Assembly: GCF_000455285.1 (NCBI RefSeq)
Contig: NZ_HG005291.1
Span: 145,451 to 199,375 of the forward strand
Direction: 5' to 3'
DNA: 53,925 bases
Origin: Candidatus Stoquefichus massiliensis AP9
GTDB lineage: Bacteria; Bacillota_I; Bacilli_A; Erysipelotrichales; Coprobacillaceae
The notes under the pieces were generated by a model. The model saw only the letters and a list, made by a program, of their open reading frames with translations, was not told where the DNA came from and searched no databases. Positions 5,893 to 21,445 of this stretch are shown piece after piece; the first letter of the stretch is position 1, and the number at the start of each line of letters is the position of its first letter. The translations under genes and the position numbers were made by a program.

Positions 5893-5910
5893 CTTACTCA
5901 CCTCTTTTGC

Positions 5911-5939
5911 TTTCCATTATAACAAATACTCGCTATAAT
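5911..5939 (+). promoter_or_regulatory. birA promoter implying a leaderless mRNA
   Basis: TTTCCA (5911-5916), 17 bases, TATAAT (5934-5939). The birA ATG begins only 7 bases after the -10 element, where transcription should start. No ribosome site is present upstream of the ATG. Confidence 0.6.
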
Positions 5940-5945
5940 AAAAAC

Positions 5946-6893
5946 ATGGAAAAACAAATATTACGAATATTAACAAAAAAACAGGGACACTTTATTTCCG
6001 GGCAGGAAATCAGTAACAAATTAAATGTCTCAAGAATGACAATATCTACATATATGAAGAAATTAAAAGAGAAAGGATATCAAATTGTCACTTCAACAAA
6101 AAAAGGATATTGTTTAACATTAGACAATGATATTATTTTCAGTGATGATATCAAAAAACAACTTCATTCCTTTTATCAAAACATTGAATATTATGATGAA
6201 GTCACTTCAACAAATTTACTAATGAAAACAGGAAATTATCAACAAGGTGATATTATTATTGCTGATAGTCAAACTGCTGGTCAAGGAAGAAATGGCAGAA
6301 CTTTTTATTCACCAAAACAAAAAGGCATCTATCTTTCTTTTTTACTCAAACCACAACGTTCTATCTATGATTCATTAAAAATCACTTCCTGTTGTGCTGT
6401 TGCACTCATCAAAACTATCAAGAAGAATTATTCACTTGAGCCAACCATCAAATGGGTCAATGACATCATGTTAGGAGACTTGAAAATAGCTGGTATTCTT
6501 TGTGAAGCAACATTAGAAATGAATACTGCTCAAATTGAAAATATGATTGTCGGAGTTGGACTCAATGTTCATCATTATGATATGCCTCATGAATTACAAG
6601 GGATTGCTGGCTGTATTGAAGATGATTTGCAAAGTTTTGTTCCACGACAAAAAATCATCATAGATTTTCTGAATATTTTCTATGATGATTATTCAAAATT
6701 ATCTTCTTTATCATTTCTTGACATCTATCGTCAATCCTCTTATGTCTTACATCAAAACATTACAGTATTTGAAAATAACACAACTTATCCAGCCTATGTG
6801 GCCTCTATTAATGATGATTCCAGTCTAACAATCATTGTTAATGATCAAGAAAAGATTCTCCAATCAGGTGAAGTCAGCATTCGGAAAAACTAA
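5946..6893 (+). CDS. birA: Bifunctional biotin-protein ligase / biotin repressor BirA
   Basis: A 315-residue protein. The N-terminal winged helix (about 1-60: GQEISNKLNVSRMTISTYMKKL) is the DNA-binding half of class II BirA. The catalytic domain follows, with SQTAGQGRNGRTFYSP (biotinoyl-AMP loop), KWVNDIML (KWPND-like lysine) and VGVGLNVHH. The small C-terminal domain ends at residue 315. It attaches biotin to AccB, which is encoded in the neighbouring fatty acid operon, and represses biotin genes when biotin is plentiful. The start agrees with other BirA N-termini and has no ribosome site. Its stop codon overlaps the fabZ stop codon on the other strand. Confidence 0.93.
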   Translation: MEKQILRILTKKQGHFISGQEISNKLNVSRMTISTYMKKLKEKGYQIVTSTKKGYCLTLDNDIIFSDDIKKQLHSFYQNIEYYDEVTSTNLLMKTGNYQQGDIIIADSQTAGQGRNGRTFYSPKQKGIYLSFLLKPQRSIYDSLKITSCCAVALIKTIKKNYSLEPTIKWVNDIMLGDLKIAGILCEATLEMNTAQIENMIVGVGLNVHHYDMPHELQGIAGCIEDDLQSFVPRQKIIIDFLNIFYDDYSKLSSLSFLDIYRQSSYVLHQNITVFENNTTYPAYVASINDDSSLTIIVNDQEKILQSGEVSIRKN

Positions 6894-7321
6894 TCTCCTA
6901 CAGCACACATGATTTCACCTGTCACAGCAATTTCATTTTCAACTCTTGCTTCAATGGTGGCAAAATAAATGCCACCTTTTTCTTTTGTTAAAGTGACTGT
7001 CATTGTTAAAACGTCACCTGGAATCACTTGTTTTCTAAAACGTGCTTTATTAATCCCCGCAAAGAAAGCAATTTTTCCCTTGTTTTCTTCCTTAGAAAGT
7101 AATAATACACAACCTGTTTGAGCTAACGCTTCAATAATAAGAACACCAGGCATCACATGTTTATCTGGAAAATGTCCTAAAAACTGCATCTCATTAGCAG
7201 TCACACATTTTCTTCCAACAATCATTTTGCCATCTTCACTTATACTTTCAACACAATCAACTAATAAAAATGGATAACGATGAGGAATAATTTTTTGAAT
7301 ATCATTTGAATTATATAACAT
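6890..7321 (-). CDS. fabZ: 3-hydroxyacyl-ACP dehydratase FabZ
   Basis: A 143-residue hotdog-fold enzyme that dehydrates 3-hydroxyacyl-ACP to trans-2-enoyl-ACP. The catalytic histidine and glutamate are in LGHFPDKHVMPGVLIIEALAQ-type sequence: H of GHFP and E of IEALAQ. The start at 7321 follows GGGAGGATTAATC; the GTG at 7336 overlaps the fabF end and is less likely. It is the last gene of the operon and lies 2 bases after the fabF stop codon. No FabA or FabM homologue is present, so if unsaturated fatty acids are made here, either this FabZ or the FabX-like protein must supply the cis bond. Confidence 0.95.
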   Translation of the reverse strand: MLYNSNDIQKIIPHRYPFLLVDCVESISEDGKMIVGRKCVTANEMQFLGHFPDKHVMPGVLIIEALAQTGCVLLLSKEENKGKIAFFAGINKARFRKQVIPGDVLTMTVTLTKEKGGIYFATIEARVENEIAVTGEIMCAVGD

Positions 7322-7323
7322 GA

Positions 7324-8562
7324 TTAATCCTCCCACTTCTTAAAGATTAATGAAGCATTATGTCCACCAAAACCAAGTGAATTGTTCATTGCATAATGAA
7401 TATCCTGATATCTCCCATCATTTGGAACAATATCCAAATCGCAATCTTCATCTTTGATTTGATAATGAAGTGTTGCAGGAATATAACCATCTTCAAGTGC
7501 TTTGATACAAATCACTGATTCTAATGCACCACTCGCACCTAATAAATGTCCTGTATATGATTTTGTTGAAGACATCGCCACATGTTTCGCTGCTTCTCCA
7601 AATGCATATTTGACAGCTGCTGTTTCTGTTTTATCATTTAAAGGTGTACTTGTTCCATGAGCATTAATATAATCAATATTCGATGGCTCTATACCTGCAT
7701 CTTTCATAGCATTTATCATAGCTTTTCCACCACCACTGCCATCAGATAATGGTGCTGTAATATGATAAGCATCACAAGTTGCTCCATATCCAACAACTTC
7801 ACCATAAATTTTTGCTCCACGAGACAAAGCATGTTCTAAAGATTCTAAAACAAGTAAAGCTGCTCCTTCACCCATAACAAATCCACTACGTTCTTGATCA
7901 AAAGGAATAGATGCACGATTTTTATCAGTTCCCGTATGCAAGGCTTTCATAGAAGCAAAACCAGCCACTGATAATGGTGTAATCGAAGCTTCACTTCCAC
8001 CGGCTAGCATCATATCCTCATAACCATCTCTGATTTTATGAAAAGCTTCACCAATTGCATTTGTACCAGCAGCACATGCTGTAACAATAGATGAAACATG
8101 ACCATTGGCACCTAAATCAATCGCAACACTTCCAGCCGCTAAATTGATCAATGTCATAGGAATAAAATAAGGCGAAACCTTTGATGGTCCTCTATTGAGT
8201 AAAGACTGTTCTGCTTTTTCAATTGATTCAACACCACCAATACCAGAACCAACAATCACTCCAAAACGATCTTTATTCACCTTTTCTAAATCCAACTGTG
8301 CATCTTCAATCGCTTGTTTTGCAGCAACTCTTGCAAATTGCGTAAAACGATCATTGAATTTTAATTCACGTTTGGTAAAATATTCTTCCATATCTAAGTT
8401 TTTCACTTCACCAGCTAATTTCACTTTATAATCAGTTGTATCAAAATGTGTAATCTCATCAATTCCACAAACCTGATTTTGAATACTCTGCCAAGTTTCC
8501 TCAACTGTATTTCCAATTGGGGACAAAACTCCCATTCCAGTTATGACAACTCTTTTTTTCAT
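7324..8562 (-). CDS. fabF: 3-oxoacyl-ACP synthase II FabF
   Basis: A 412-residue elongating condensing enzyme. The catalytic triad is visible: Cys in VTACAAGTNAIGEA, His in NAHGTSTPLND, His in SYTGHLLGASGA. The N-terminus MKKRVVITGMGVLSPIGN is typical and supports the ATG at 8562, which follows AGGAGGATGGAGA. It condenses acyl-ACP with malonyl-ACP. It lies 13 bases downstream of fabG in the operon. No fabB is visible, so FabF is probably the only elongation synthase encoded here. Confidence 0.97.
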   Translation of the reverse strand: MKKRVVITGMGVLSPIGNTVEETWQSIQNQVCGIDEITHFDTTDYKVKLAGEVKNLDMEEYFTKRELKFNDRFTQFARVAAKQAIEDAQLDLEKVNKDRFGVIVGSGIGGVESIEKAEQSLLNRGPSKVSPYFIPMTLINLAAGSVAIDLGANGHVSSIVTACAAGTNAIGEAFHKIRDGYEDMMLAGGSEASITPLSVAGFASMKALHTGTDKNRASIPFDQERSGFVMGEGAALLVLESLEHALSRGAKIYGEVVGYGATCDAYHITAPLSDGSGGGKAMINAMKDAGIEPSNIDYINAHGTSTPLNDKTETAAVKYAFGEAAKHVAMSSTKSYTGHLLGASGALESVICIKALEDGYIPATLHYQIKDEDCDLDIVPNDGRYQDIHYAMNNSLGFGGHNASLIFKKWED

Positions 8563-8575
8563 TCTCCATCCTCCT

Positions 8576-9310
8576 CTACATGACCATTCCGCCATCAACA
8601 TTGATCACTTGACCAGTTACATATTTTGCTTGATCACTCGCTAAAAAATATGCCATATTCGCAATATCTTCTACCGCTCCTAATGTATTTAAAGGAATCG
8701 CCTGCAAGATGTTTTCTTTTGTCTTTTCATCTAGAACATCTGTCATATCAGTTGCAATAAATCCTGGAGCAATCGCATTCACACGAATTGAACGAGGTGC
8801 TAATTCTTTAGCTACTGATTTTGTTAAACCAATAATTCCTGCTTTACTAGCAGCATAATTGGCTTGTCCAGCATTTCCAATTTCACCAATGACACTAGCC
8901 ATATTAATAATCACTCCACTTCTTTGTTTCATCATAATACGAGTGACTGCTTTGATTGTATTAAATGTTCCTTTTAAATTCACATCAACAACATCCATAA
9001 ATGTTTGTGTATTCATTTTCAATAACAATTGATCTTTTGTAATTCCTGAATTGTTCACAAGAACATCAATACGTCCATAATTATCCATAGCTACTTTCAT
9101 CAAATGTTCCATCTCCTCATATTGAGAAACATCACCCTGACAAAGAATGGCACTCACACCTTTTGCCATACATTCCTGTCTGACCTGATTGGCTTTTTCT
9201 TCATTCCCACGATAATTAATCACAATACAGTATCCCTCTTTAGCAAACTTCAAGGCAATGGCTTTACCAATCCCTCGACTTGCACCCGTAATCACTACCA
9301 CTTTATTCAT
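8576..9310 (-). CDS. fabG: 3-oxoacyl-ACP reductase FabG
   Basis: A 244-residue short-chain dehydrogenase. It has the NADP(H) motif TGASRGIG at residues 8-15, the NNSG motif, and a Ser-Tyr-Lys triad in MASVIGEIGNAGQANYAASK. The C-terminus YVTGQVINVDGGM is typical of FabG. It reduces 3-oxoacyl-ACP. Its ATG overlaps the end of fabD by 8 bases, so it is translationally coupled. Confidence 0.96.
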   Translation of the reverse strand: MNKVVVITGASRGIGKAIALKFAKEGYCIVINYRGNEEKANQVRQECMAKGVSAILCQGDVSQYEEMEHLMKVAMDNYGRIDVLVNNSGITKDQLLLKMNTQTFMDVVDVNLKGTFNTIKAVTRIMMKQRSGVIINMASVIGEIGNAGQANYAASKAGIIGLTKSVAKELAPRSIRVNAIAPGFIATDMTDVLDEKTKENILQAIPLNTLGAVEDIANMAYFLASDQAKYVTGQVINVDGGMVM

Positions 9311-10217
9311 CTTTTAAAGCTCCTAACATTTTATTTAAACTTTCAACATTATCAACACTATAAACTGGTATTGTCTTATCTGTCTTTTTCACAAAAGAAC
9401 TCAAGGCTTTTCCTGGACCAATTTCCACAAAAACGTCTACACCTTTTTCAATCATATATTGTAATGACTGATAAAAATAAACACTTGATTTGATTTGCTT
9501 TGTTAATATATCTTGAAGATCCCCATCTTCTTCTTTTCCAGAAATATTATAAACAACAGGTATTTTTGGTTTTTGAATATCATATTTCCCTAATTCAGTT
9601 TTTAATTGTAACGATGCTTCTTCTAGCAATGGTGAATGAAAAGCCCCAGATACTTTTAAAGGAATAACACGTTTTGCCCCTGCTTCCTTTAATTTTTCAC
9701 TCGCCATTTCAATAGCTTCTTTTTTACCTGTAATTGCAATTTGTCCTGGACAGTTGTAATTGGCAATCGTAACATCATCAATATCGGCAATCACTTCCTG
9801 AATCTTATCAGCTTCCATGGCTAATACAGCAGCCATCGAAGTTGTACCAGCAGGTAATGCTTCGCTCATCAGTTGACCTCTCGCACGTACAATCTGAATC
9901 GCATCATGAATAGAAAAGGCATTGGCATAGGCAAGTGCAGAATACTCTCCTAAAGAAAGACCTGCTACATAATCAGGTTTAATGCCATGTGCTTCTACAA
10001 CTTTTGCGATTGCTAATGATGTTGTTAAAATGCATGGTTGAGCATATGATGTTTCATTTAAAATATCTTCTGGTCCCTCAAAGCAAATGTTATTGACATC
10101 AACATCAATATTAGCCTGATCAAAAACAGCTCTTGCTTCTTCAAAGTTCTCATAGAGTTCTTTTCCCATTCCAACATACTGAGCTCCCTGTCCAGCAAAG
10201 ATAAATCCTATTTTCAT
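9303..10217 (-). CDS. fabD: Malonyl-CoA:ACP transacylase FabD
   Basis: A 304-residue enzyme that transfers malonate from CoA to acyl carrier protein. It starts MKIGFIFAGQGAQYVGMG. The nucleophile serine is in GLSLGEYSAL, the arginine in IVRARGQLM, and the catalytic histidine in SGAFHSPLLEEA. Its start overlaps the upstream gene stop as ATGA. Confidence 0.96.
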   Translation of the reverse strand: MKIGFIFAGQGAQYVGMGKELYENFEEARAVFDQANIDVDVNNICFEGPEDILNETSYAQPCILTTSLAIAKVVEAHGIKPDYVAGLSLGEYSALAYANAFSIHDAIQIVRARGQLMSEALPAGTTSMAAVLAMEADKIQEVIADIDDVTIANYNCPGQIAITGKKEAIEMASEKLKEAGAKRVIPLKVSGAFHSPLLEEASLQLKTELGKYDIQKPKIPVVYNISGKEEDGDLQDILTKQIKSSVYFYQSLQYMIEKGVDVFVEIGPGKALSSFVKKTDKTIPVYSVDNVESLNKMLGALKDE

Positions 10218-11278
10218 AGCTCTCCCTCCATTTCCTGCATATATTCCTGAATTAATTCATCAACATGTTTCATTTGGTGAATCTTAGCTGCTTGTGTTCC
10301 TACAAAGATTAAACCCTGATTCACATTTCCTTGAACACTTTGAATCAATGCCTCACTAATACAATAAGGTGTATCTTCAGGTGTACATGGAATCATACAA
10401 TGTAAACAATTTTGCATGTGAATATTGCCTCTGTCTCTTGTTTTTTGAACAAATGCATTGACAATAGCTCGTCCTGGAAACCCAGTTGGACTCTTAACAA
10501 TTTCTATATCTTCTGCTGAAGCATTGATAACCATATCTTTAAATTCTTGAGCTGCATCACATTCATAAGTCGCAATAAACGGCGTTGCAATTTGAACTCC
10601 AGTTGCCCCTAACTTGATATATTCTGCAATTTTTTGACCACAGTCAATCCCACCTGCTACAAAAATAGGAATCTTCTTCTTAAACTTTTCTTGAAAAGGC
10701 TGTAATTCTTTTTTAACATCTGCTAGAATTTCTGATAATTTCTGGCATGTCCCTGCTAACAAATCTTCTTTCTTAAATCCTAAATGTCCACCTGCATCAC
10801 TACCTTCAATCACTACAAAATCAGGTGTACATTGATAACGTTTTTCCCATACTCTTGCAATCAGTCTAGCCGCTTTTCCACTTGAAACAATCGGTGCAAG
10901 AAGAGCCTTTCCTTTGGCAAACTTTGGTAAATCTAATGGTAATCCAGCACCAGAAATAATGGCATCACAGCCACCTTCAATAGATGCTTTGACCATATCT
11001 TCATACCCATGACCAGCGACCATGATATTCACACCAATCAAACCTTTTCCTTGCGCTATTTCTTTGGCACGTTTGATATGGTGTTTAATCGCTTGGCAAT
11101 TCGTTGCGATAGGATTTTTTCTAAATCCTTCAAAATTATATCCTGGATGAGCAGCACTGATGACACCCATACCACCACATTTCGCAACATGTCCTGCTAG
11201 CGATGATAGCGATACACCTACTCCCATTCCACCTTGAATCAGAGGAATACTTAAAAATTGATCTTGAATTTGAATCAT
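10214..11278 (-). CDS. FabX-like NMO-family flavoprotein with C-terminal Cys cluster
   Basis: This 354-residue protein is an FMN-binding TIM-barrel of the nitronate monooxygenase/FabK superfamily: IPLIQGGMGVG at the N-terminus, GSDAGGHLGF with the presumed catalytic His165, and FVAGGI as phosphate-binding loop. Unlike FabK it has a C-terminal cysteine cluster, CLHCMIPCTPEDTPYC (Cys291, 294, 298, 306), then NVNQGLIFVGTQA. From memory, Helicobacter pylori FabX has the same layout: GGH loop, Cys cluster holding a 4Fe-4S centre, and a final GLYFTG stretch. FabX oxidises decanoyl-ACP and isomerises it to start unsaturated chains. Here the gene starts directly after the fabK stop (TAAATG) and overlaps fabD. 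Assignment as FabX is inference; a generic nitronate monooxygenase is the alternative. Confidence 0.75.
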   Translation of the reverse strand: MIQIQDQFLSIPLIQGGMGVGVSLSSLAGHVAKCGGMGVISAAHPGYNFEGFRKNPIATNCQAIKHHIKRAKEIAQGKGLIGVNIMVAGHGYEDMVKASIEGGCDAIISGAGLPLDLPKFAKGKALLAPIVSSGKAARLIARVWEKRYQCTPDFVVIEGSDAGGHLGFKKEDLLAGTCQKLSEILADVKKELQPFQEKFKKKIPIFVAGGIDCGQKIAEYIKLGATGVQIATPFIATYECDAAQEFKDMVINASAEDIEIVKSPTGFPGRAIVNAFVQKTRDRGNIHMQNCLHCMIPCTPEDTPYCISEALIQSVQGNVNQGLIFVGTQAAKIHQMKHVDELIQEYMQEMEGEL

Positions 11279-12217
11279 TTATAACGCCTCCATGATTTGA
11301 CTTAATGATTGATAAACATCTTTGCTAGAAGACATCAATTCATCAAGAATTTGTTGCATTGGTTTCTTTTCTTGTATCATACCTGCAATTTGTCCCATCA
11401 TGACTGAACCCATTTTCACATCACCATCTTGAACAGCTTTTCTTAAACCACCCAATGTTAATTTTTCAAGTTCTTCACGACTTTCAAAATGTCCTTCTAA
11501 TTTCAAATATTCTCTCGCCATTTGATTCTTCAAAATACGAACAGGTGTGTTCACACTTTTTCCTGTCACAACTGTATCTGTATCTCTTGCTTTAATCACA
11601 GCATCTTTATAATTTTCATGAATTGGACATTCATCAGCAACCAATAAACATGTTCCCACTTGAACACCACATGCACCAAGTGCAAAGGCTGCCATCATTC
11701 CTCGTCCATCAGCAATACCACCTGCTGCAATGACTGGAATTGAAACTGCATCAACTACTTGAGGAACCAAAGCCATAGTTGTCATTTCACCAACATGTCC
11801 TCCTGATTCGCCACCTTCAACAATCAATGCATCAGCACCAGCACGTTCCATTCTTTTAGCCAATCCGACACTTGGAACAACTGGAAAGACCTTAATACTT
11901 GCTGCTTTAAACTGTTCCATATAAGTCCCAGGATTACCTGCACCAGTTGTCACAACTGGCACACCTTCCTCACAAATCACTTTGACAATTTCACTGGCAT
12001 AAGGATTCATCAACATGACATTGACACCAAATGGTTGACTTGTTAATTGTTTACACTTTTGAATTTCTTCACGTGTCTGCTTGGCATCCATTGATCCAGT
12101 TGCAATAATTCCTAGTCCTCCACAATTGGAAACACAGGCTGCAAACTCAGCTGTCGCAATATTTGCCATTGCCCCTTGAATAATGGGATATTTTATATTT
12201 AATAATTTATTTAACAC
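11279..12217 (-). CDS. fabK: FMN-dependent enoyl-ACP reductase II FabK
   Basis: A 312-residue protein very like streptococcal FabK: YPIIQGAMANIA, FGVNVMLMNPY, VVTTGAGNP, EGGESGGHVGE with His141, and PVIAAGGIADGRG. It reduces enoyl-ACP with NAD(P)H, the last step of each cycle. No fabI is seen, so this should make the pathway insensitive to triclosan. The start codon is GTG at 12217, inside the end of fabH and preceded by AGGAGGAGAAT; the overlap is 11 bases. No ATG lies nearby. Confidence 0.94.
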   Translation of the reverse strand: MLNKLLNIKYPIIQGAMANIATAEFAACVSNCGGLGIIATGSMDAKQTREEIQKCKQLTSQPFGVNVMLMNPYASEIVKVICEEGVPVVTTGAGNPGTYMEQFKAASIKVFPVVPSVGLAKRMERAGADALIVEGGESGGHVGEMTTMALVPQVVDAVSIPVIAAGGIADGRGMMAAFALGACGVQVGTCLLVADECPIHENYKDAVIKARDTDTVVTGKSVNTPVRILKNQMAREYLKLEGHFESREELEKLTLGGLRKAVQDGDVKMGSVMMGQIAGMIQEKKPMQQILDELMSSSKDVYQSLSQIMEAL

Positions 12218-13196
12218 ATTCTTCTCCTCCTACTTTGTCAATCAATGTTGCGCCATATGTGAGTCCAGACCCAAATCCAACAAGAATCACTCGTTTATGT
12301 TCGTCTATCAATCCTGCTTCATGAGCCTGAGCATAAGCAATAGGAATACTTGCTGCTGAAGTATTTCCAAATTCTTGCAAATTCATATAAAACTTAGAAA
12401 TATCAACTTTCATTCTTTTAGCAACATGATTAATAATTCGATAATTTGCTTGATGAGGAATAATCAAGTCAATATCATCAATTGTGAGATGGGCCTGTTT
12501 TAAAACATTTTCAATTGATTCTTTAAGAACACGCACTGCAAATCGAAACACATCATTCCCTTGCATTGTCAAAAATTGATCAATTGGGATTTGATTTTGT
12601 AAATTCTGCGTTAAAGTTAATCCATTGGCTTTTAACACACCAGATAAATCACCTTCACTATTGGCATAATGAAATAATTGAGATGAACCTTGACCTATTA
12701 TCATAGCCCCTGCTCCATCTCCAAATAAAACACAAGTACTGCGATCATCCCAGTTCAACATTTTGCTTAATGTTTCACTGCCAATAATTAATATTTTTTG
12801 ATAACGATTGATTAAATCACTCGCAAGTTGAAAAGCATACAAGAAACCACTACAGGCGGCATTGATATCAATCGCAAAGATTGGCACATCATTTAAACCT
12901 AACTTGGCTTGTACAAGACAAGCAGTCGATGGTGTTAAACAATCAGGTGTCATTGTTGCAACAAGAATAACATCTATATCCTTATTTTGTATATGGGCAC
13001 TTTCAATAGCCTGCAAAGAAGCACGTACAGCCAAATCACTCGTATTTTCATCAATCGTTATATAACGTGAAGAAATTCCTGTTCTTTGAACAATCCATTC
13101 ATCACTTGTTTCTACACGTTTCTCTAAATCAAAATTTGTAATTTTCTGTTGAGCTTTGGCCAAGCCACAACCTAGAATTTTTACTTGATTATTCAT
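12207..13196 (-). CDS. fabH: 3-oxoacyl-ACP synthase III FabH
   Basis: A 329-residue initiating condensing enzyme that joins acetyl-CoA (or a branched primer) to malonyl-ACP. The triad is visible: Cys in INAACSGF, His in IPHQANYRI, Asn in FGNTSAASIP. The N-terminal region has the typical SDEWIVQRTGI. Its start overlaps the accA stop as ATGA. Confidence 0.96.
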   Translation of the reverse strand: MNNQVKILGCGLAKAQQKITNFDLEKRVETSDEWIVQRTGISSRYITIDENTSDLAVRASLQAIESAHIQNKDIDVILVATMTPDCLTPSTACLVQAKLGLNDVPIFAIDINAACSGFLYAFQLASDLINRYQKILIIGSETLSKMLNWDDRSTCVLFGDGAGAMIIGQGSSQLFHYANSEGDLSGVLKANGLTLTQNLQNQIPIDQFLTMQGNDVFRFAVRVLKESIENVLKQAHLTIDDIDLIIPHQANYRIINHVAKRMKVDISKFYMNLQEFGNTSAASIPIAYAQAHEAGLIDEHKRVILVGFGSGLTYGATLIDKVGGEECVK

Positions 13197-14116
13197 CTTG
13201 ACATACTTCCCATCTTACGGAATTTCCCATAACGGTTGTCTAACATATCTTTTTCTTTGGTTGCCTTTAATGTCTGCAATGTTTCATATAAATAACGATC
13301 TAAATCATGTAAAACAAGTTTTAAATCATTTTGCATACCACCAGTTGGTTCTTTGATTAAATAATCAACAATACCTTTATCATATAAATCATAAGATGTT
13401 AATTTCATCACATCAGCCGCTTCTTGAACACGTGAATCATCTTTCCACAAAATACTCGCAAAGCCCTCTGGTGACAAGACAGAATAAACTGCATTTTCTA
13501 ACATGCAAATACGATCAGCTACACTCAATGCCAAAGCACCACCACTACCACCTTCTGATAAAACAACACAAATAACTGGCGTCTTTATATCTGAAAAAGT
13601 ATATAAACAATCAGCAATGGCTTGTGCTTGTCCACGTTCTTCTGCTTCAATCCCTGGGTAAGCTCCAGCAGTATCCACAAAAGTAATGATAGGACGATGG
13701 AATTTTTCAGCTTGTCTTGCAAGTCTTAAAGCCTTACGGTACCCCTCTGGATTACACATTCCAAAATGACGATCTAGATTTTCTTGTAAAGTCTTTCCTT
13801 TAGCTTGAGCAATCACTGTGACTGGCATATCATGAAAATACCCAACACCACCAATAATCGCATGATCATCCCCATAACAGCGATCACCATGCAACTCATA
13901 AAAATGCTCAAACAATCCGTCTATAAAATCAATTGCTTTAGGACGATTGGGATGTCTTGCCAGACAAACACGATCCCATGGCGTTAAATGATCATATGTT
14001 TCTTTCATTAACTCATCGATCTCTTTTGATAATTGATCATATTCATTCCCAGCGTCTAACAATGCACGTGTTGCCTGGAGTTCTTTGATTTTTCTTTCGT
14101 TATCTATGAGGCTCAT
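13193..14116 (-). CDS. accA: Acetyl-CoA carboxylase carboxyltransferase subunit alpha
   Basis: A 307-residue crotonase-fold subunit. Landmarks are HGDRCYGDDHAIIGG, FVDTAGAYPGIEAEERGQAQAIA, and SEGGSGGALAL, which forms the carboxybiotin oxyanion site. With AccD it transfers CO2 from biotin on AccB to acetyl-CoA. Its start overlaps the accD stop by 4 bases. It ends in a genuine TGA, which helps show that TGA is a stop codon in this genome. Confidence 0.96.
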   Translation of the reverse strand: MSLIDNERKIKELQATRALLDAGNEYDQLSKEIDELMKETYDHLTPWDRVCLARHPNRPKAIDFIDGLFEHFYELHGDRCYGDDHAIIGGVGYFHDMPVTVIAQAKGKTLQENLDRHFGMCNPEGYRKALRLARQAEKFHRPIITFVDTAGAYPGIEAEERGQAQAIADCLYTFSDIKTPVICVVLSEGGSGGALALSVADRICMLENAVYSVLSPEGFASILWKDDSRVQEAADVMKLTSYDLYDKGIVDYLIKEPTGGMQNDLKLVLHDLDRYLYETLQTLKATKEKDMLDNRYGKFRKMGSMSR

Positions 14117-14982
14117 AATTTTCCTCCATGTAATCTTAATAGTTCTGATAAAACCGTCTTTAAGTTTTGACGTTCAACAATCATATCAATAAAACCTTTA
14201 TCTAATAAGAATTCAGCAGTTTGGAACCCTTCTGGCAATTCTTGTTTAATTGTATCTTGAATGACGCGTTTTCCAGCAAATCCAATTAATGCTTGAGGTT
14301 CAGAGATAATGATATCTCCCAGCATAGCAAAACTGGCACTGACTCCACCTGTTGTCGGATGTGTTAGTAATGTGATATAGAAACCACCCTGATTAGAAAA
14401 TCTTTTCAAAGCCGCACTAATTTTAGCCATTTGCATTAAAGAATCAATCCCTTCCTGCATTCTGGCACCACCACTTGTACAACTAATAATCAAAGGAAGT
14501 TTTTTACGAGTTGCCAGTTCAACACCTTTACAAATCTTTTCACCAACAACTTTTCCCATGCTCCCCATCATAAAATGAGAATCCATCACACATAAAACAA
14601 CCCGCTGTTGATTCATTTTACCAATCCCACAAATTACAGCTTCATTCATTCCTGTAGACATTTTCGCTTTTTTTAGTTTTTCATCATATCCTGGAAAGTT
14701 TTCAATATTCACAGAACAATCTTTTTCAAAATATTCACGCCAAGTCCCTTCATCTACTAAACTTCGAATACGTTGTCTAGCACTAATTTTCATATGATGA
14801 CCACATTTAGGACAGACATAATTATTTTCTACAAATGAAAAATAAGGAATAGATTCATGACATGCATCACATTGTTTAAAGATATTATCTGGAACTTCTT
14901 TTTTCTGTTTTGGTTTATGTCTTTTTAACCAAGAAGAAAATTCTTTTAATTCTTGATTTCTTTTCTTAAACAATTGATCCAT
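14113..14982 (-). CDS. accD: Acetyl-CoA carboxylase carboxyltransferase subunit beta
   Basis: A 289-residue subunit with the N-terminal four-cysteine zinc ribbon, CDACHESIPYF then CPKCGHH, followed by the crotonase-like domain with SCTSGGARMQEG and TGGVSASFAMLGD. It pairs with AccA. The start at 14982 follows AGGAGTTGAAAGAGA and overlaps the accC end by 17 bases, implying coupled translation. Confidence 0.96.
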   Translation of the reverse strand: MDQLFKKRNQELKEFSSWLKRHKPKQKKEVPDNIFKQCDACHESIPYFSFVENNYVCPKCGHHMKISARQRIRSLVDEGTWREYFEKDCSVNIENFPGYDEKLKKAKMSTGMNEAVICGIGKMNQQRVVLCVMDSHFMMGSMGKVVGEKICKGVELATRKKLPLIISCTSGGARMQEGIDSLMQMAKISAALKRFSNQGGFYITLLTHPTTGGVSASFAMLGDIIISEPQALIGFAGKRVIQDTIKQELPEGFQTAEFLLDKGFIDMIVERQNLKTVLSELLRLHGGKL

Positions 14983-16333
14983 TCTCTTTCAACTCCTTTA
15001 TAAAACGTTCACAAAATCCTGTATCATATTGACCATCAATGAAATCTTTAGAATGTAAGACATAATAATGAAATTTTGTGTTAGTAGAAATACCATCAAT
15101 AATCACTTCACTTAATGCAGCACGCATTTTTTTGATACACTCTAAACGAGTTGGAGCAAATGTAATTAATTTTAAGATCATAGAATCATAATAAGGTGAT
15201 ATTTCATAGCCACAATACATTGCACTATCAACCCTAATTCCTCGACCACCTGGTAAATGCATAAAAGCAATTTTTCCTGGTGTTGGCGCAAAATCTCTAT
15301 TCATATCTTCAGCATTGATACGACATTCTAAGGCATATCCATTTTGATGAATATCTGATTGTTGATAAGGAAGTTTTAATCCTTCAGCAATCTTTAATTG
15401 TAATTTCACCAAATCAATTCCACAGATCATTTCTGTAATAGGATGTTCCACTTGGATTCTGGTATTCATTTCCATAAAATAATAATGACCATATTTATCT
15501 AGTAGAAATTCAATTGTTCCTAAACTATCATATCCTACATGAAGACAAGCTTTTAAAGCATCAGCAAATAGTTTTTCTCGTACATCTTTCTTTAAGATAT
15601 GACATGGTGCTTCTTCAATCATCTTTTGATGACGCCTTTGAAATGAACAATCTCTTTCATATAAATGAATCACATGACCATGCTGATCACCAACAACCTG
15701 AACTTCAATATGTTTTGGATTTTCAATAAATTTTTCCAGATATACATCATCATCTCCAAAACATGCTTTGGCTTCCGCTTTTGCATTCATATACTGGGTT
15801 TCAAATTCTTCTTCATTAGAAATAACACGCATGCCACGTCCACCACCGCCATTGCTTGCCTTAATGATGACAGGATAACCAATCTCTCTTGCGATTTCCT
15901 GACCATGTTCAACTGATTCAACAATTTCTTTAGAACCAGGAATCACAGGTACACCAGCATCTTTCATTAATTTTCTCGCTTGTGCTTTATTCCCTAACAT
16001 ATCAATAATATCTGGTGTCGGTCCTACCCAAATCAAACCACATTGGATGACCAATCTGGCAAATTGACTATTTTCACTTAAAAAACCAAATCCCGGATGA
16101 ATTGCATCACATCCTGTATTACAGGCTGCCTGTATGATTGCATTCATATTCAAATAAGAATCATTGGCAAGTGGTCCACCAATACACACTGCTTCATCAG
16201 CTAACTGTACATGCAATGATAATTTATCAGCAGTTGAATAGACCGCAACACTCTGTATTCCCATTTCTTTACATGTCCTTATAATTCTGACTGCAATTTC
16301 ACCACGATTTGCAATTAATAATTTTTCAATCAT
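14966..16333 (-). CDS. accC: Biotin carboxylase subunit of acetyl-CoA carboxylase
   Basis: A 455-residue ATP-grasp enzyme that carboxylates the biotin on AccB. It opens IEKLLIANRGEIAVRIIRTC. The glycine-rich ATP loop is KASNGGGGRGMR, and the active-site region reads EMNTRIQVEHPITEM. It lies 9 bases after accB and overlaps accD. It is the usual length for the stand-alone subunit. Confidence 0.97.
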   Translation of the reverse strand: MIEKLLIANRGEIAVRIIRTCKEMGIQSVAVYSTADKLSLHVQLADEAVCIGGPLANDSYLNMNAIIQAACNTGCDAIHPGFGFLSENSQFARLVIQCGLIWVGPTPDIIDMLGNKAQARKLMKDAGVPVIPGSKEIVESVEHGQEIAREIGYPVIIKASNGGGGRGMRVISNEEEFETQYMNAKAEAKACFGDDDVYLEKFIENPKHIEVQVVGDQHGHVIHLYERDCSFQRRHQKMIEEAPCHILKKDVREKLFADALKACLHVGYDSLGTIEFLLDKYGHYYFMEMNTRIQVEHPITEMICGIDLVKLQLKIAEGLKLPYQQSDIHQNGYALECRINAEDMNRDFAPTPGKIAFMHLPGGRGIRVDSAMYCGYEISPYYDSMILKLITFAPTRLECIKKMRAALSEVIIDGISTNTKFHYYVLHSKDFIDGQYDTGFCERFIKELKENGSIV

Positions 16334-16342
16334 GAAATCACC

Positions 16343-16753
16343 TTACCCTATCATCATTAAAACTTGATCATATTCAACAGTTTCACCATCGTTAACTTCA
16401 ATAGATAAGATATTTCCACTTGTTGTTGCCTTAATTTCATTCATCACTTTCATTGCCTCAATAATACAAATCGTATCACCCGTATTCACATGATCACCAA
16501 CACTCACAAATGCTTTTTGATCAGTACCACTAGCCTGATAATAAGTTCCTACTAATGGACTTTTAACAGGTGTTCCCACTTGAATAGGCTCCTCTTTTCC
16601 AATTTCTTTTTCAATAACTGGCTTTCTGATGACTTCTACTGCTTCTGTTTCTTTTTCTAATGTCATGTGTAAATCACCATCAGTCAGATCCATTTTAGAA
16701 ATTTGGCTTTCTTCAAACATTTTCATAATTGATTTAATTTTTTCAGTATCCAT
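16343..16753 (-). CDS. accB: Biotin carboxyl carrier protein AccB
   Basis: A 136-residue protein. The N-terminal 30 residues are helical. A linker follows (about 35-60), then the biotinyl domain with SPLVGTYY and the biotinylation site EAMKVMNEI, where the lysine is modified by BirA. The gene follows acpP after a hairpin that probably lowers read-through, so it should be made at a lower level than the acyl carrier protein. RBS AAGGAGGAAACTT precedes the ATG. Confidence 0.96.
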   Translation of the reverse strand: MDTEKIKSIMKMFEESQISKMDLTDGDLHMTLEKETEAVEVIRKPVIEKEIGKEEPIQVGTPVKSPLVGTYYQASGTDQKAFVSVGDHVNTGDTICIIEAMKVMNEIKATTSGNILSIEVNDGETVEYDQVLMMIG

Positions 16754-16772
16754 AAGTTTCCTCCTTAGAAAA

Positions 16773-16796
16773 ATAAGCTAAGTTAACTTAGCTTAT
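16773..16796 (-). terminator. Attenuator/partial terminator between acpP and accB
   Basis: A perfect 24-bp palindrome: on the minus strand ATAAGCTAAG pairs with CTTAGCTTAT around TTAA, followed by TTTTTC. It includes the acpP stop codon. Because accB follows after 40 bases with no promoter seen, it probably ends a share of transcripts and leaves a surplus of acpP mRNA. Confidence 0.7.
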
Positions 16797-17020
16797 GATT
16801 GTTTAGATTCAATTAATACAACGATATCTTTAACTGTCACTAAAGCAGCTAATTCTTCATCAGAGATTTCAACATCAAATTCAGTTTCTAAATCTAAAGA
16901 TAATTCAACAGCAGCTAATGAATCAATTCCTAAATCATCTTTTAAGTTAGATTCTAACTTAATATCTCCTCCATCAATATTTAATGATTCTACTAATGCA
17001 TCTTTCACTTGTTCAAACAT
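16793..17020 (-). CDS. acpP: Acyl carrier protein of the fatty acid operon
   Basis: A 75-residue acidic protein with the phosphopantetheine site DDLGIDSLAAVEL. It heads the fatty acid operon behind a strong promoter and carries the growing chains between FabD, FabH, FabF, FabG, FabZ and FabK. The RBS AGGAGGAAATAG precedes the ATG. A hairpin over its stop codon separates it from accB. Confidence 0.95.
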   Translation of the reverse strand: MFEQVKDALVESLNIDGGDIKLESNLKDDLGIDSLAAVELSLDLETEFDVEISDEELAALVTVKDIVVLIESKQS

Positions 17021-17221: not shown

Positions 17222-17875
17222 TTAGTTTAACAATGTTTTCACTAAATCTATCACAATATCTTTATCCTCTGGTCTAGAAGATGCTACCAATATCGTCAAT
17301 GTTGCAAAAGCATCATTACTGATTCTTTCCTTTTTACCTTTATATAAAGCTTTATTCTTCGACAAGAAATATAAAAATATGGTTGCCCCTATTCTTTTAT
17401 TATCATCAATAAAACTATGATTTTTAACAATGAAATAAAGTAATGCACTTGCTTTATCCTCAATTATTGGATATAAATCCTGATTTCCAAAACTTTGATA
17501 GATAGTCGCAATACTTGAATGAAAGGATTGATCTTTTTCAATCACAAACTGATCTTCCTTATCAACAAACATCGTTTTACGAATAAGTTCTATACATTCT
17601 TCATAATCAATAACATAAACATCTCTTTCTCCCTTAGGGAATGTTAATGTATGATGATCATCATCTAAAATCTTTGTCACATAATCAATATCTTGAAAAT
17701 GTCTATTGTTAATAACATAACCTTTCAACAAATAATCTTTTAATATTTTATTTGCCCATTTTCTAAACAATATGCCTCGTTTTGATTTCACACGATATCC
17801 TACTGATATAATGACATCTCATATAAATTCGTTATCTCTAAATTGTACAACTTCATTTTCCATAATGGCATCCAT
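17222..17875 (-). pseudogene. Broken RhuM-Fic (Fic/DOC) protein gene
   Basis: The ATG at 17875 has a good ribosome site (GAGGAGA) and reads 18 residues, MENEVVQFRDNEFI at the end, then an in-frame TGA at 17821-17819. The frame continues as DVIISVGYRVKSKRG, which is normally deep inside RhuM-type proteins. About 70-80 residues including the N-terminal winged helix are missing between these parts. The remaining 189 codons hold the RhuM middle and a C-terminal Fic-like domain with HSFIDDNKRIG, a variant of HPFxDGNKR. RhuM-Fic proteins are often found in accessory and toxin contexts. An internal deletion that left a stop at the junction is the simplest reading. Confidence 0.75.
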
Positions 17876-18031: not shown

Positions 18032-18553
18032 CTATTGTGGTATCATGAATTGGACACGCTGATAGATGATTATTGCTATAATGATTGACAGCAAATCTCC
18101 AGGTAAATAAATAAGACATAAACTGACAACAATCCAGCTCATTGAAAAAACTTGATGATAATAAGCAAACTGTATAAAAACAAAATAAATCATGCCTACT
18201 ATATAAATGATTATAAGCCCAATAAAACATCTTATAAACAAAGCAAAACAATCACTCATTTGATAACTTCCAATAAAATAACTGCTGATCACAAATCCTA
18301 TTAAATAACCAAATGATGGAACAAAAACATAAGAAAGTCCACCACCATTTGTAAAAACAGGCAGTCCAACCAATCCCATGATAATATAAAGAAGAACACT
18401 ATAGACAGCTCTCTTTCTTAAAATCAATGCTGTTAATATTACAAATAATGTTTGTAATGTAATTGGAACAATTGAAACTGGTACTTTGACAAAAGCTCCC
18501 ACTGCTATTAAAATTGCAAACAATGCATATAAACACATATCCTGTACTTTCAT
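18032..18553 (-). CDS. bioY: Biotin transporter S-component BioY
   Basis: A 173-residue membrane protein with about six helices, typical of BioY. Landmarks are the N-terminal VPVSIVPITLQTLFVILTAL stretch and GLPVFTNGGGLSYVFVPSFGYLIGF, which matches the biotin-binding loop region. BioY imports biotin alone or with ECF energy-coupling proteins, none of which are in the window. The ATG at 18553 follows AGGAGGATTGTT; the upstream ATG at 18619 lies inside the promoter. A BirA-type box overlaps its promoter, fitting control by the nearby birA. Confidence 0.92.
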   Translation of the reverse strand: MKVQDMCLYALFAILIAVGAFVKVPVSIVPITLQTLFVILTALILRKRAVYSVLLYIIMGLVGLPVFTNGGGLSYVFVPSFGYLIGFVISSYFIGSYQMSDCFALFIRCFIGLIIIYIVGMIYFVFIQFAYYHQVFSMSWIVVSLCLIYLPGDLLSIIIAIIIYQRVQFMIPQ

Positions 18554-18578
18554 AACAATCCTCCTTGTATGTTTGAAT

Positions 18579-18607
18579 ATCATACAAAAAGAAAATGTAA
18601 TTGTAAA
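18579..18607 (-). promoter_or_regulatory. bioY promoter
   Basis: On the minus strand TTTACA (18607-18602), 17 bases, TATGAT (18584-18579). The -35 element lies within one arm of the inverted repeat at 18601-18632. Confidence 0.7.
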
Positions 18608-18632
18608 GTTATTTTTCATTTTTATTTTACAA
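18601..18632. promoter_or_regulatory. BirA-type operator upstream of bioY
   Basis: TTGTAAAGT and ATTTTACAA separated by 14 bases. The known bacterial BirA signal is TTGTnAACC-N14-16-GGTTnACAA, so the outer seven bases of each arm and the spacing fit. Overlap with the -35 element fits repression when biotin is plentiful. Confidence 0.65.
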
Positions 18633-19942: not shown

Positions 19943-21445
19943 TTATTTCTTTTTACCACCAACACCTGAATATAATTCATTTGTTCCATTCTTTAAAACT
20001 TTAATTCCTTCATACAATCCATTCATAGCATCATGAACACCAGCATTACCATCTTTAATACCTTTGGCACCGGCTAATAAACCTGTTCTTAATTCACTTA
20101 ACTTCACAAGTCCTGTATTTAATGTTTGTACCCCATTTAATAGAGGAGCATTTGTTGAACTTAACTGATTCAACCCACTCATTAATGCAAATGTTCCATC
20201 AGTCAATGGTTGTGCATTTTGAGATAATTGAGAACTTCCTTCTTTTAAAATCTTAACACCACTATAAAGTGTTTGTGATCCCTGATTTAAAGTTTGAGCA
20301 CCTTTCTTTAATTCAGTTGTTCCCTGATGAAGAGCCTGTGAACCAACATAAGCAGTATGAACACCCTCAACATATGTCTTTAAACCTGTTTCAATCCCTT
20401 TATCTTTATCCTTAATCAATTGAATTATTCCATCAATACCTTGAATCAATCCATCTTTCACACCAGGTAACTTTGTTAATGTTTGTAGTCCTTGATTGAT
20501 TAGACTGTATTTTTGATTAAGTTGACTTGCACCTTCTGCTACATTTTTGGTTGCGTTTTTCAATCCATTCACAACTGGAACAGCTTGATCTAGCGCTTGA
20601 TCAGTTGCAGTGTAAGTTCCTGCTAATTGCATCAGCAACACTTGTGCATTTTCCTGACTCATAGCCTCAGAATATGTTAGTGGATTAGCAAGCTTAGCTG
20701 CAAATTGAGCTAATTCATCAGAACTATATGCTCCTTGAAGCTTACTTATACTTGTTTGTAATTGTCCTGCAACTGTATCAACACCTTTCGCTCCTGTTTC
20801 TAATCCAGCAATTCCTTGGGAAACAAGTTGTGAACCATCTGTCAATGTTTTCACTGTTGTTTGATCTGGCAAAACAGTTAAACCTTTTTTTATAGCTGTT
20901 AGAGCTTCTACAAGTTGATCTGGTGCTGCCAATAATGTTGCACTATTTTCATCCAGTAATGCCATACCATTTGTTAAAGTTTCCGTTCCTTGATTCAGTT
21001 GTGTTGCTCCTGTTTCTAATGTAGGTGTTCCATTTATAAGAACAGTTGTTCCATCATATAAAGTTTGCACTCCAGCATCCAATCCTTTGACACCACCCAT
21101 ATAAGCATAAACACCAGAATACAAACCATCTGCTCCGGTCTTTAATGCTGTTACAGCACCTGTATATTTTGTTAAACCTTGGTTCAAAACATCTGTTCCC
21201 TTTGCTAACGCATCAACTCCGGCAGTATACTGTTCAACACCTGTGTACAACTGTGAACTTCCATCGTTTAAAGATTTAGCTCCAGATAAAATTTTACCTG
21301 CTCCATCTTCTAAAGCTATCGCTCCATCATTCAATTGTCCTGTTCCACTTTGTAGTGTTGATAAGACTGTTCCCCCTCCAGCAGCAGTTCCTATAACCAG
21401 AACAGCAACTGCAGAACCAATGATAATCTTCTTTTTATGTTTCAT
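19943..21445 (-). CDS. LxxG heptad-repeat surface protein
   Basis: A 500-residue protein. The basic N-terminus MKHKKKIIIG and a hydrophobic segment (about 8-28) form a signal anchor. Nearly all the rest is a run of seven-residue repeats of the type xxxLxxG, for example LSGAKSLNDGSSQLYTG. The same repeats occur in the extracellular part of YhgE/Pip proteins and predict a long rigid rod, probably a helical bundle. Here they stand alone, without the ABC-2 membrane domain usual for YhgE. It ends in GVGGKKK with no sorting signal. Ribosome site AAAGGAGG. It diverges from an AraC regulator that may control it. Function unknown. Confidence 0.75.
   Translation of the reverse strand: MKHKKKIIIGSAVAVLVIGTAAGGGTVLSTLQSGTGQLNDGAIALEDGAGKILSGAKSLNDGSSQLYTGVEQYTAGVDALAKGTDVLNQGLTKYTGAVTALKTGADGLYSGVYAYMGGVKGLDAGVQTLYDGTTVLINGTPTLETGATQLNQGTETLTNGMALLDENSATLLAAPDQLVEALTAIKKGLTVLPDQTTVKTLTDGSQLVSQGIAGLETGAKGVDTVAGQLQTSISKLQGAYSSDELAQFAAKLANPLTYSEAMSQENAQVLLMQLAGTYTATDQALDQAVPVVNGLKNATKNVAEGASQLNQKYSLINQGLQTLTKLPGVKDGLIQGIDGIIQLIKDKDKGIETGLKTYVEGVHTAYVGSQALHQGTTELKKGAQTLNQGSQTLYSGVKILKEGSSQLSQNAQPLTDGTFALMSGLNQLSSTNAPLLNGVQTLNTGLVKLSELRTGLLAGAKGIKDGNAGVHDAMNGLYEGIKVLKNGTNELYSGVGGKKK

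Follow-up and report, generated by a model that had tools for sequence, protein, structure and literature searches.

A FabX-family gene in the fatty acid operon of Candidatus Stoquefichus massiliensis AP9 and its predicted role in anaerobic unsaturated fatty acid synthesis

FabX of Helicobacter pylori (HP0773; PDB 7e1q, 9lt5) is a flavin- and iron-sulfur-containing enzyme that places the double bond in membrane lipids, with O2 taking up the electrons (PMC8626469). UfaA of Neisseria gonorrhoeae (NGO1024) is described in PMC11300592 as a FabX homologue of about 36% identity that functions anaerobically and whose electron acceptor is not known, and the title of Isabella and Clark 2011, cited there, proposes a relevance to anaerobes lacking FabA. 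The anaerobe Fusobacterium nucleatum also has a FabX (C4N14_08920), which is 50.8% identical to the H. pylori enzyme, keeps the Cys and flavin mononucleotide (FMN) residues and occurs together with FabK, the enoyl-acyl carrier protein (ACP) reductase II (PMC11091888). Neither the family nor its part in making unsaturated fatty acids is therefore new. Here, we analyzed a 53,925-nucleotide stretch (the window) of the Erysipelotrichales genome of Candidatus Stoquefichus massiliensis AP9, in which the open reading frame 10214-11278 (-) encodes a protein of 354 amino acids from an ATG start and was confirmed as real. Its product is a FabX-family protein and not a second FabK.

A search of PDB sequences returned H. 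pylori FabX as the closest solved structure (E 1.7e-60, residues 6-346), with FabK entries reaching only about 70 bits. The AlphaFold (AF2) model of the protein, computed with 75 window and locus sequences as input, had a predicted local distance difference test (pLDDT) score of 94.6, and Foldseek placed all five FabX entries on top (7.6e-33 to 6.2e-30), followed by FabK (3.9e-21). In VIA-align the FabX fold was matched over its full length, C-terminal domain included (Z 47.9, 341 residues, root-mean-square deviation 1.8 A), while the best FabK reached Z 37.1 and the nitroalkane oxidase and nitronate monooxygenase (NMO) entries stayed below that value. A profile built from Firmicutes relatives alone, with H. 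pylori FabX excluded, gave 341 bits for H. pylori FabX versus 110 bits for the window FabK, and a FabK profile gave H. pylori FabX 103 bits. The window protein itself exceeded the gathering score of Pfam NMO (PF03060; 136.9 bits, threshold 28) and fell far short of the FabK model TIGR03151 (107.1 bits, cut-off 453.1); apart from FabK, no other protein of the genome passed the NMO cut-off. In a tree, the FabX group stood apart from FabK with a support of 100/100, although the branch of H. pylori FabX was long and a third outgroup was not part of the tree. Whether by sequence, profile, fold, residues or gene context, the protein groups with FabX and away from FabK and nitronate monooxygenase, which bears out the FabX-like identity proposed in a preliminary description of the window; its activity is a prediction.

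The GGH motif lies at residues 163-165 (His165), and Cys291, Cys294, Cys298 and Cys306 form a C-x2-C-x3-C-x7-C motif, precisely where the preliminary description had located them. The paper on the FabX structure (PMC8626469) names individual residues, which we located by alignment in 30 Erysipelotrichales proteins. The FMN contacts N99, E175, Q240, T243, G22, G23, G25, G180, G220 and G221 (H. pylori numbering) as well as the catalytic H182 were identical in 30/30, and C304, C308 and C320 matched column for column. The first cluster Cys was off by one column, since the first two cysteines are spaced Cx3C in H. pylori but Cx2C here. A four-Cys motif was found in 109/109 relatives, with the x2-x3-x7 spacing in 104, and is therefore not due to chance; these cysteines and His165 are invariant in a 75-row alignment. 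Model, FMN site, His and Cys residues hence agree with the expected likeness to H. pylori FabX. Judging from sequence, the four Cys probably form the site of a putative 4Fe-4S cluster, and their invariance favours an electron-transfer role, although they may instead serve a structural one.

The gene is part of an acc/fab operon on the minus strand with the order ACP-accB-accC-accD-accA-fabH-fabK-fabX-fabD-fabG-fabF-fabZ, as read from translations and gene order. The operon starts with the ACP and acc genes (13193-17020), followed by fabH (12207-13196) and fabK (11279-12217), an ordinary enoyl-ACP reductase gene (TIGR03151, 460 bits) directly upstream of the fabX-like gene. Downstream lie fabD (9303-10217), fabG (8576-9310; same gene order in relatives), fabF (7324-8601; TIGR03150, 601 bits) and fabZ (6890-7336; profile match). 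As previously described, the gene is separate from fabK and coupled to both neighbors: the fabK TAA abuts its ATG, which is preceded by GGAGG, and its stop codon TGA and the fabD start ATG overlap in ATGA. H. pylori, in contrast, lacks fabK, and the F. nucleatum fabX operon contains a hypothetical gene and does not place fabX between fabK and fabD (PMC11091888).

The operon contains neither fabA nor fabM, as had been stated before, and other known double-bond enzymes were absent from the genome as well. For ALTERNATIVES, the genome (99.4% complete) yielded a single FabZ (PF07977) and no second FabA/FabN-type gene, and searches for a FabM-type candidate (ECH family, PF00378) or a membrane desaturase gave no match. 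The possibility that FabM or another isomerase accounts for the double bond, considered in the preliminary description, thus found no candidate in this genome. In the order, PF00378 matches above the cut-off occurred in 21 genomes but were rejected as FabM; they are probably crotonases, because they lie mostly in genomes without fabZ. Matches to cyclopropane synthase, considered as a sign of unsaturated lipids, were methyltransferase-like and all below the cut-off.

Furthermore, we analyzed the distribution of the gene in 118 genomes of the order and 296 genomes of the wider class. Within the order, 49/118 genomes carry the fabX-like gene and 55/118 a FabA/FabZ-family gene; fabZ is present in 49/49 carriers (Fisher 6e-27, a value inflated by shared ancestry), and the fabX-like gene follows fabK by 17-71 bases (match to match) in 48/49. 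In the wider class, the respective numbers are 53 for the fabX-like gene, 95 for fabZ and 48 for both. A genome scan revealed at least 551 loci encoding the FabX-like protein. The best 80 of these belong to Bacillota as far as titles show, including Clostridium beijerinckii, C. tyrobutyricum, C. celatum, Eubacterium callanderi, Roseburia, Blautia, Butyrivibrio and Massilimicrobiota, and eight of them have the order fabK-fabX-fabD. A fab cluster is at most 7 kb away at 24 of 53 long loci, and the other 29 are apart from one; around the clostridial copies outside fab clusters, neither ferredoxin/flavodoxin nor any other common neighbor was broadly recurrent.

Taking family, cofactor-site residues, the four-Cys site, operon membership and the absence of known alternatives together, we predict, with a probability of roughly 0.78, that the gene encodes a FabX/UfaA-family flavoprotein that forms cis-3-enoyl-ACP, from which unsaturated fatty acids are built in an anaerobic pathway. 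UfaA is likewise a FabX-type NMO protein, required for anaerobic synthesis of unsaturated fatty acids, a likeness drawn from its description in PMC11300592. On the model of H. pylori FabX, acyl-ACP would bind over helix 7 with the acyl chain between FMN and His165. C2-C3 would then be dehydrogenated to the trans-2-enoyl form, or trans-2-enoyl-ACP from FabZ would enter directly, and a kinked tunnel would permit a shift of the double bond to cis-3. FabF would elongate the product to 16:1 and 18:1, and electrons would pass from FMN via the presumed 4Fe-4S cluster to a non-oxygen acceptor. O2 is unlikely to be that acceptor here, because the host, unlike H. pylori, is anaerobic.

A FabX-type route fits the unsaturated chains of such anaerobes. 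Erysipelotrichaceae anaerobes contain 16:1 w7c and w9c as well as 18:1 chains, with 10.6% 16:1 w7c and 6.5% 16:1 w9c in C. innocuum and 4.4% and 7.9%, respectively, in Hoskinsella (PMC12827125). The 16:1 species would be hard to derive from oleate in the medium alone.

The protein could instead be a second, Fe-S-linked and ferredoxin-driven enoyl-ACP reductase, serving as a backup for FabK in making saturated chains. It shares the NMO-fold FMN superfamily with FabK, almost always adjoins fabK within the order, and in Fusobacterium, higher expression of fabX offsets part of the effect of a FabK inhibitor (PMC11091888). However, the region aligned to the FabX Fe-S domain takes the place of the NAD(P)H-binding part of FabK (PMC8626469), the profile scores of the two are clearly separate, its TIGR03151 score is 107 against a cut-off of 453, FabK is already encoded, and clostridial copies are often away from the fab cluster, which makes a backup reductase unlikely. 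We consider it slightly less probable still that FabZ alone forms the cis double bond and that the NMO-type protein has another role. Isomerase ability cannot be read from a FabZ sequence, and FabN of Enterococcus is homologous to FabZ (PMC2700279), but the FabZ of C. acetobutylicum, when tested, had no isomerase activity, from which the authors concluded that an unidentified enzyme forms the bond (PMC2700279); Clostridia therefore need another enzyme. In addition, only a single fabZ exists in the genome, and nearly all fabZ-bearing relatives retain the FabX-like gene in the operon. Nitronate monooxygenase activity, as the Pfam family name and match would imply, is the least probable: solved nitronate monooxygenases lie far below FabX by sequence and fold, and both the four-Cys site and the fixed position in a fatty acid operon speak against it. 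Moreover, NMO chemistry requires O2.

Several observations weigh against the FabX/UfaA-type function. Identity to H. pylori FabX is only about 37%, below the 50% line of PMC8626469, and the Cys spacing differs (x3/x3/x11 in H. pylori versus x2/x3/x7 here). Among the ACP contacts, which comprise K152, I156, R160 and R164 of helix 7 as well as T130, K152 is K/R and I156 is L/V in the 30 Erysipelotrichales proteins, whereas R164 varies (R/K/H) and R160 and T130 are not conserved; docking detail may therefore differ. The gene is also not universal, with six fabZ-bearing genomes of the order lacking it, and co-occurrence p-values overstate independence, because the genomes are related. The cells behind the published fatty acid profiles were grown in rich media, and 18:1 w9c can be accounted for by uptake of oleate. 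Finally, the predicted activity has to be reconciled with the O2 need of H. pylori FabX in anaerobes living without O2. Since O2 is the H. pylori acceptor and UfaA works anaerobically, either an anaerobic acceptor would exist or the enzyme would be a redox-neutral isomerase acting on the trans-2 product of FabZ.

Beyond this locus, anaerobic Firmicutes in general might owe their double bonds to this family, which would then be their long-missing enzyme for that step; C. beijerinckii, the species with which Goldfine and Bloch reportedly defined the anaerobic pathway, would be one of them. The enzyme would act without oxygen, either as a trans-2-to-cis-3 isomerase, redox-neutral and supplied by FabZ, or as a dehydrogenase whose electrons leave via its 4Fe-4S cluster for ferredoxin or a similar carrier. 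This extension is tentative, and we rate it at somewhat below even odds. Clostridia and Erysipelotrichia have unsaturated lipids, no dedicated enzyme is given for them in PMC2700279, and a conserved gene in or near the fab operon offers a testable candidate; it also poses the sharp question of which electron acceptor substitutes for oxygen. The preliminary description held that this role is not usually assigned to such proteins. That holds only in part, as UfaA and FabX homologues in FabA-less anaerobes had already been proposed. A full-text search, with most subscription papers outside its scope, did not turn up a paper that assigns a FabX to Erysipelotrichia or Clostridia, and combining FabX with Clostridia returned only Fusobacterium and H. 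pylori-related work. For drug design, it has been argued that FabX inhibitors spare the gut flora, where close homologues are rare (PMC8626469); more distant homologues, such as the window protein, are common in the gut genera Roseburia, Blautia and Massilimicrobiota.

Natural losses exist within the order. In two genomes (G019, locus L127; G072, L128), fabK is directly followed by fabD and the fabX-like gene is missing, whereas their congeners G009 and G044 carry it, forming a natural loss pair within one genus; G108 shows the same arrangement as G019 and G072. G019 has no FabM-type match either. Three genomes of another genus, g42 (L130, L131, L132), have fab operons with fabZ but without fabK or the fabX-like gene in the operon, and an enoyl reductase was not identified in two of them (G060, G111). 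These losses predict strains that lack de novo unsaturated chains or use another route. A second FabK-type protein, scoring about 310 bits and sharing 37% identity with the FabK of the window, is encoded outside the fab operon of G019 (L133, 3182-4144; G019:C35) and also occurs in G009 and G072.

Elsewhere in the window, 19943-21445 (-) encodes a highly repetitive protein of 500 amino acids with glycine-spaced repeats such as LNDGAxxLxxG and no family match over the cut-off. Just upstream of the acc/fab operon, 17222-17791 (-) encodes a small protein of the Fic/DOC family whose start is RhuM-like. Genes for biotin supply flank the operon, as a BirA-type biotin ligase/repressor gene (5907-6893, +) is convergent to fabZ at one end and a BioY biotin transporter gene (18032-18619, -) lies beyond the ACP gene at the other.
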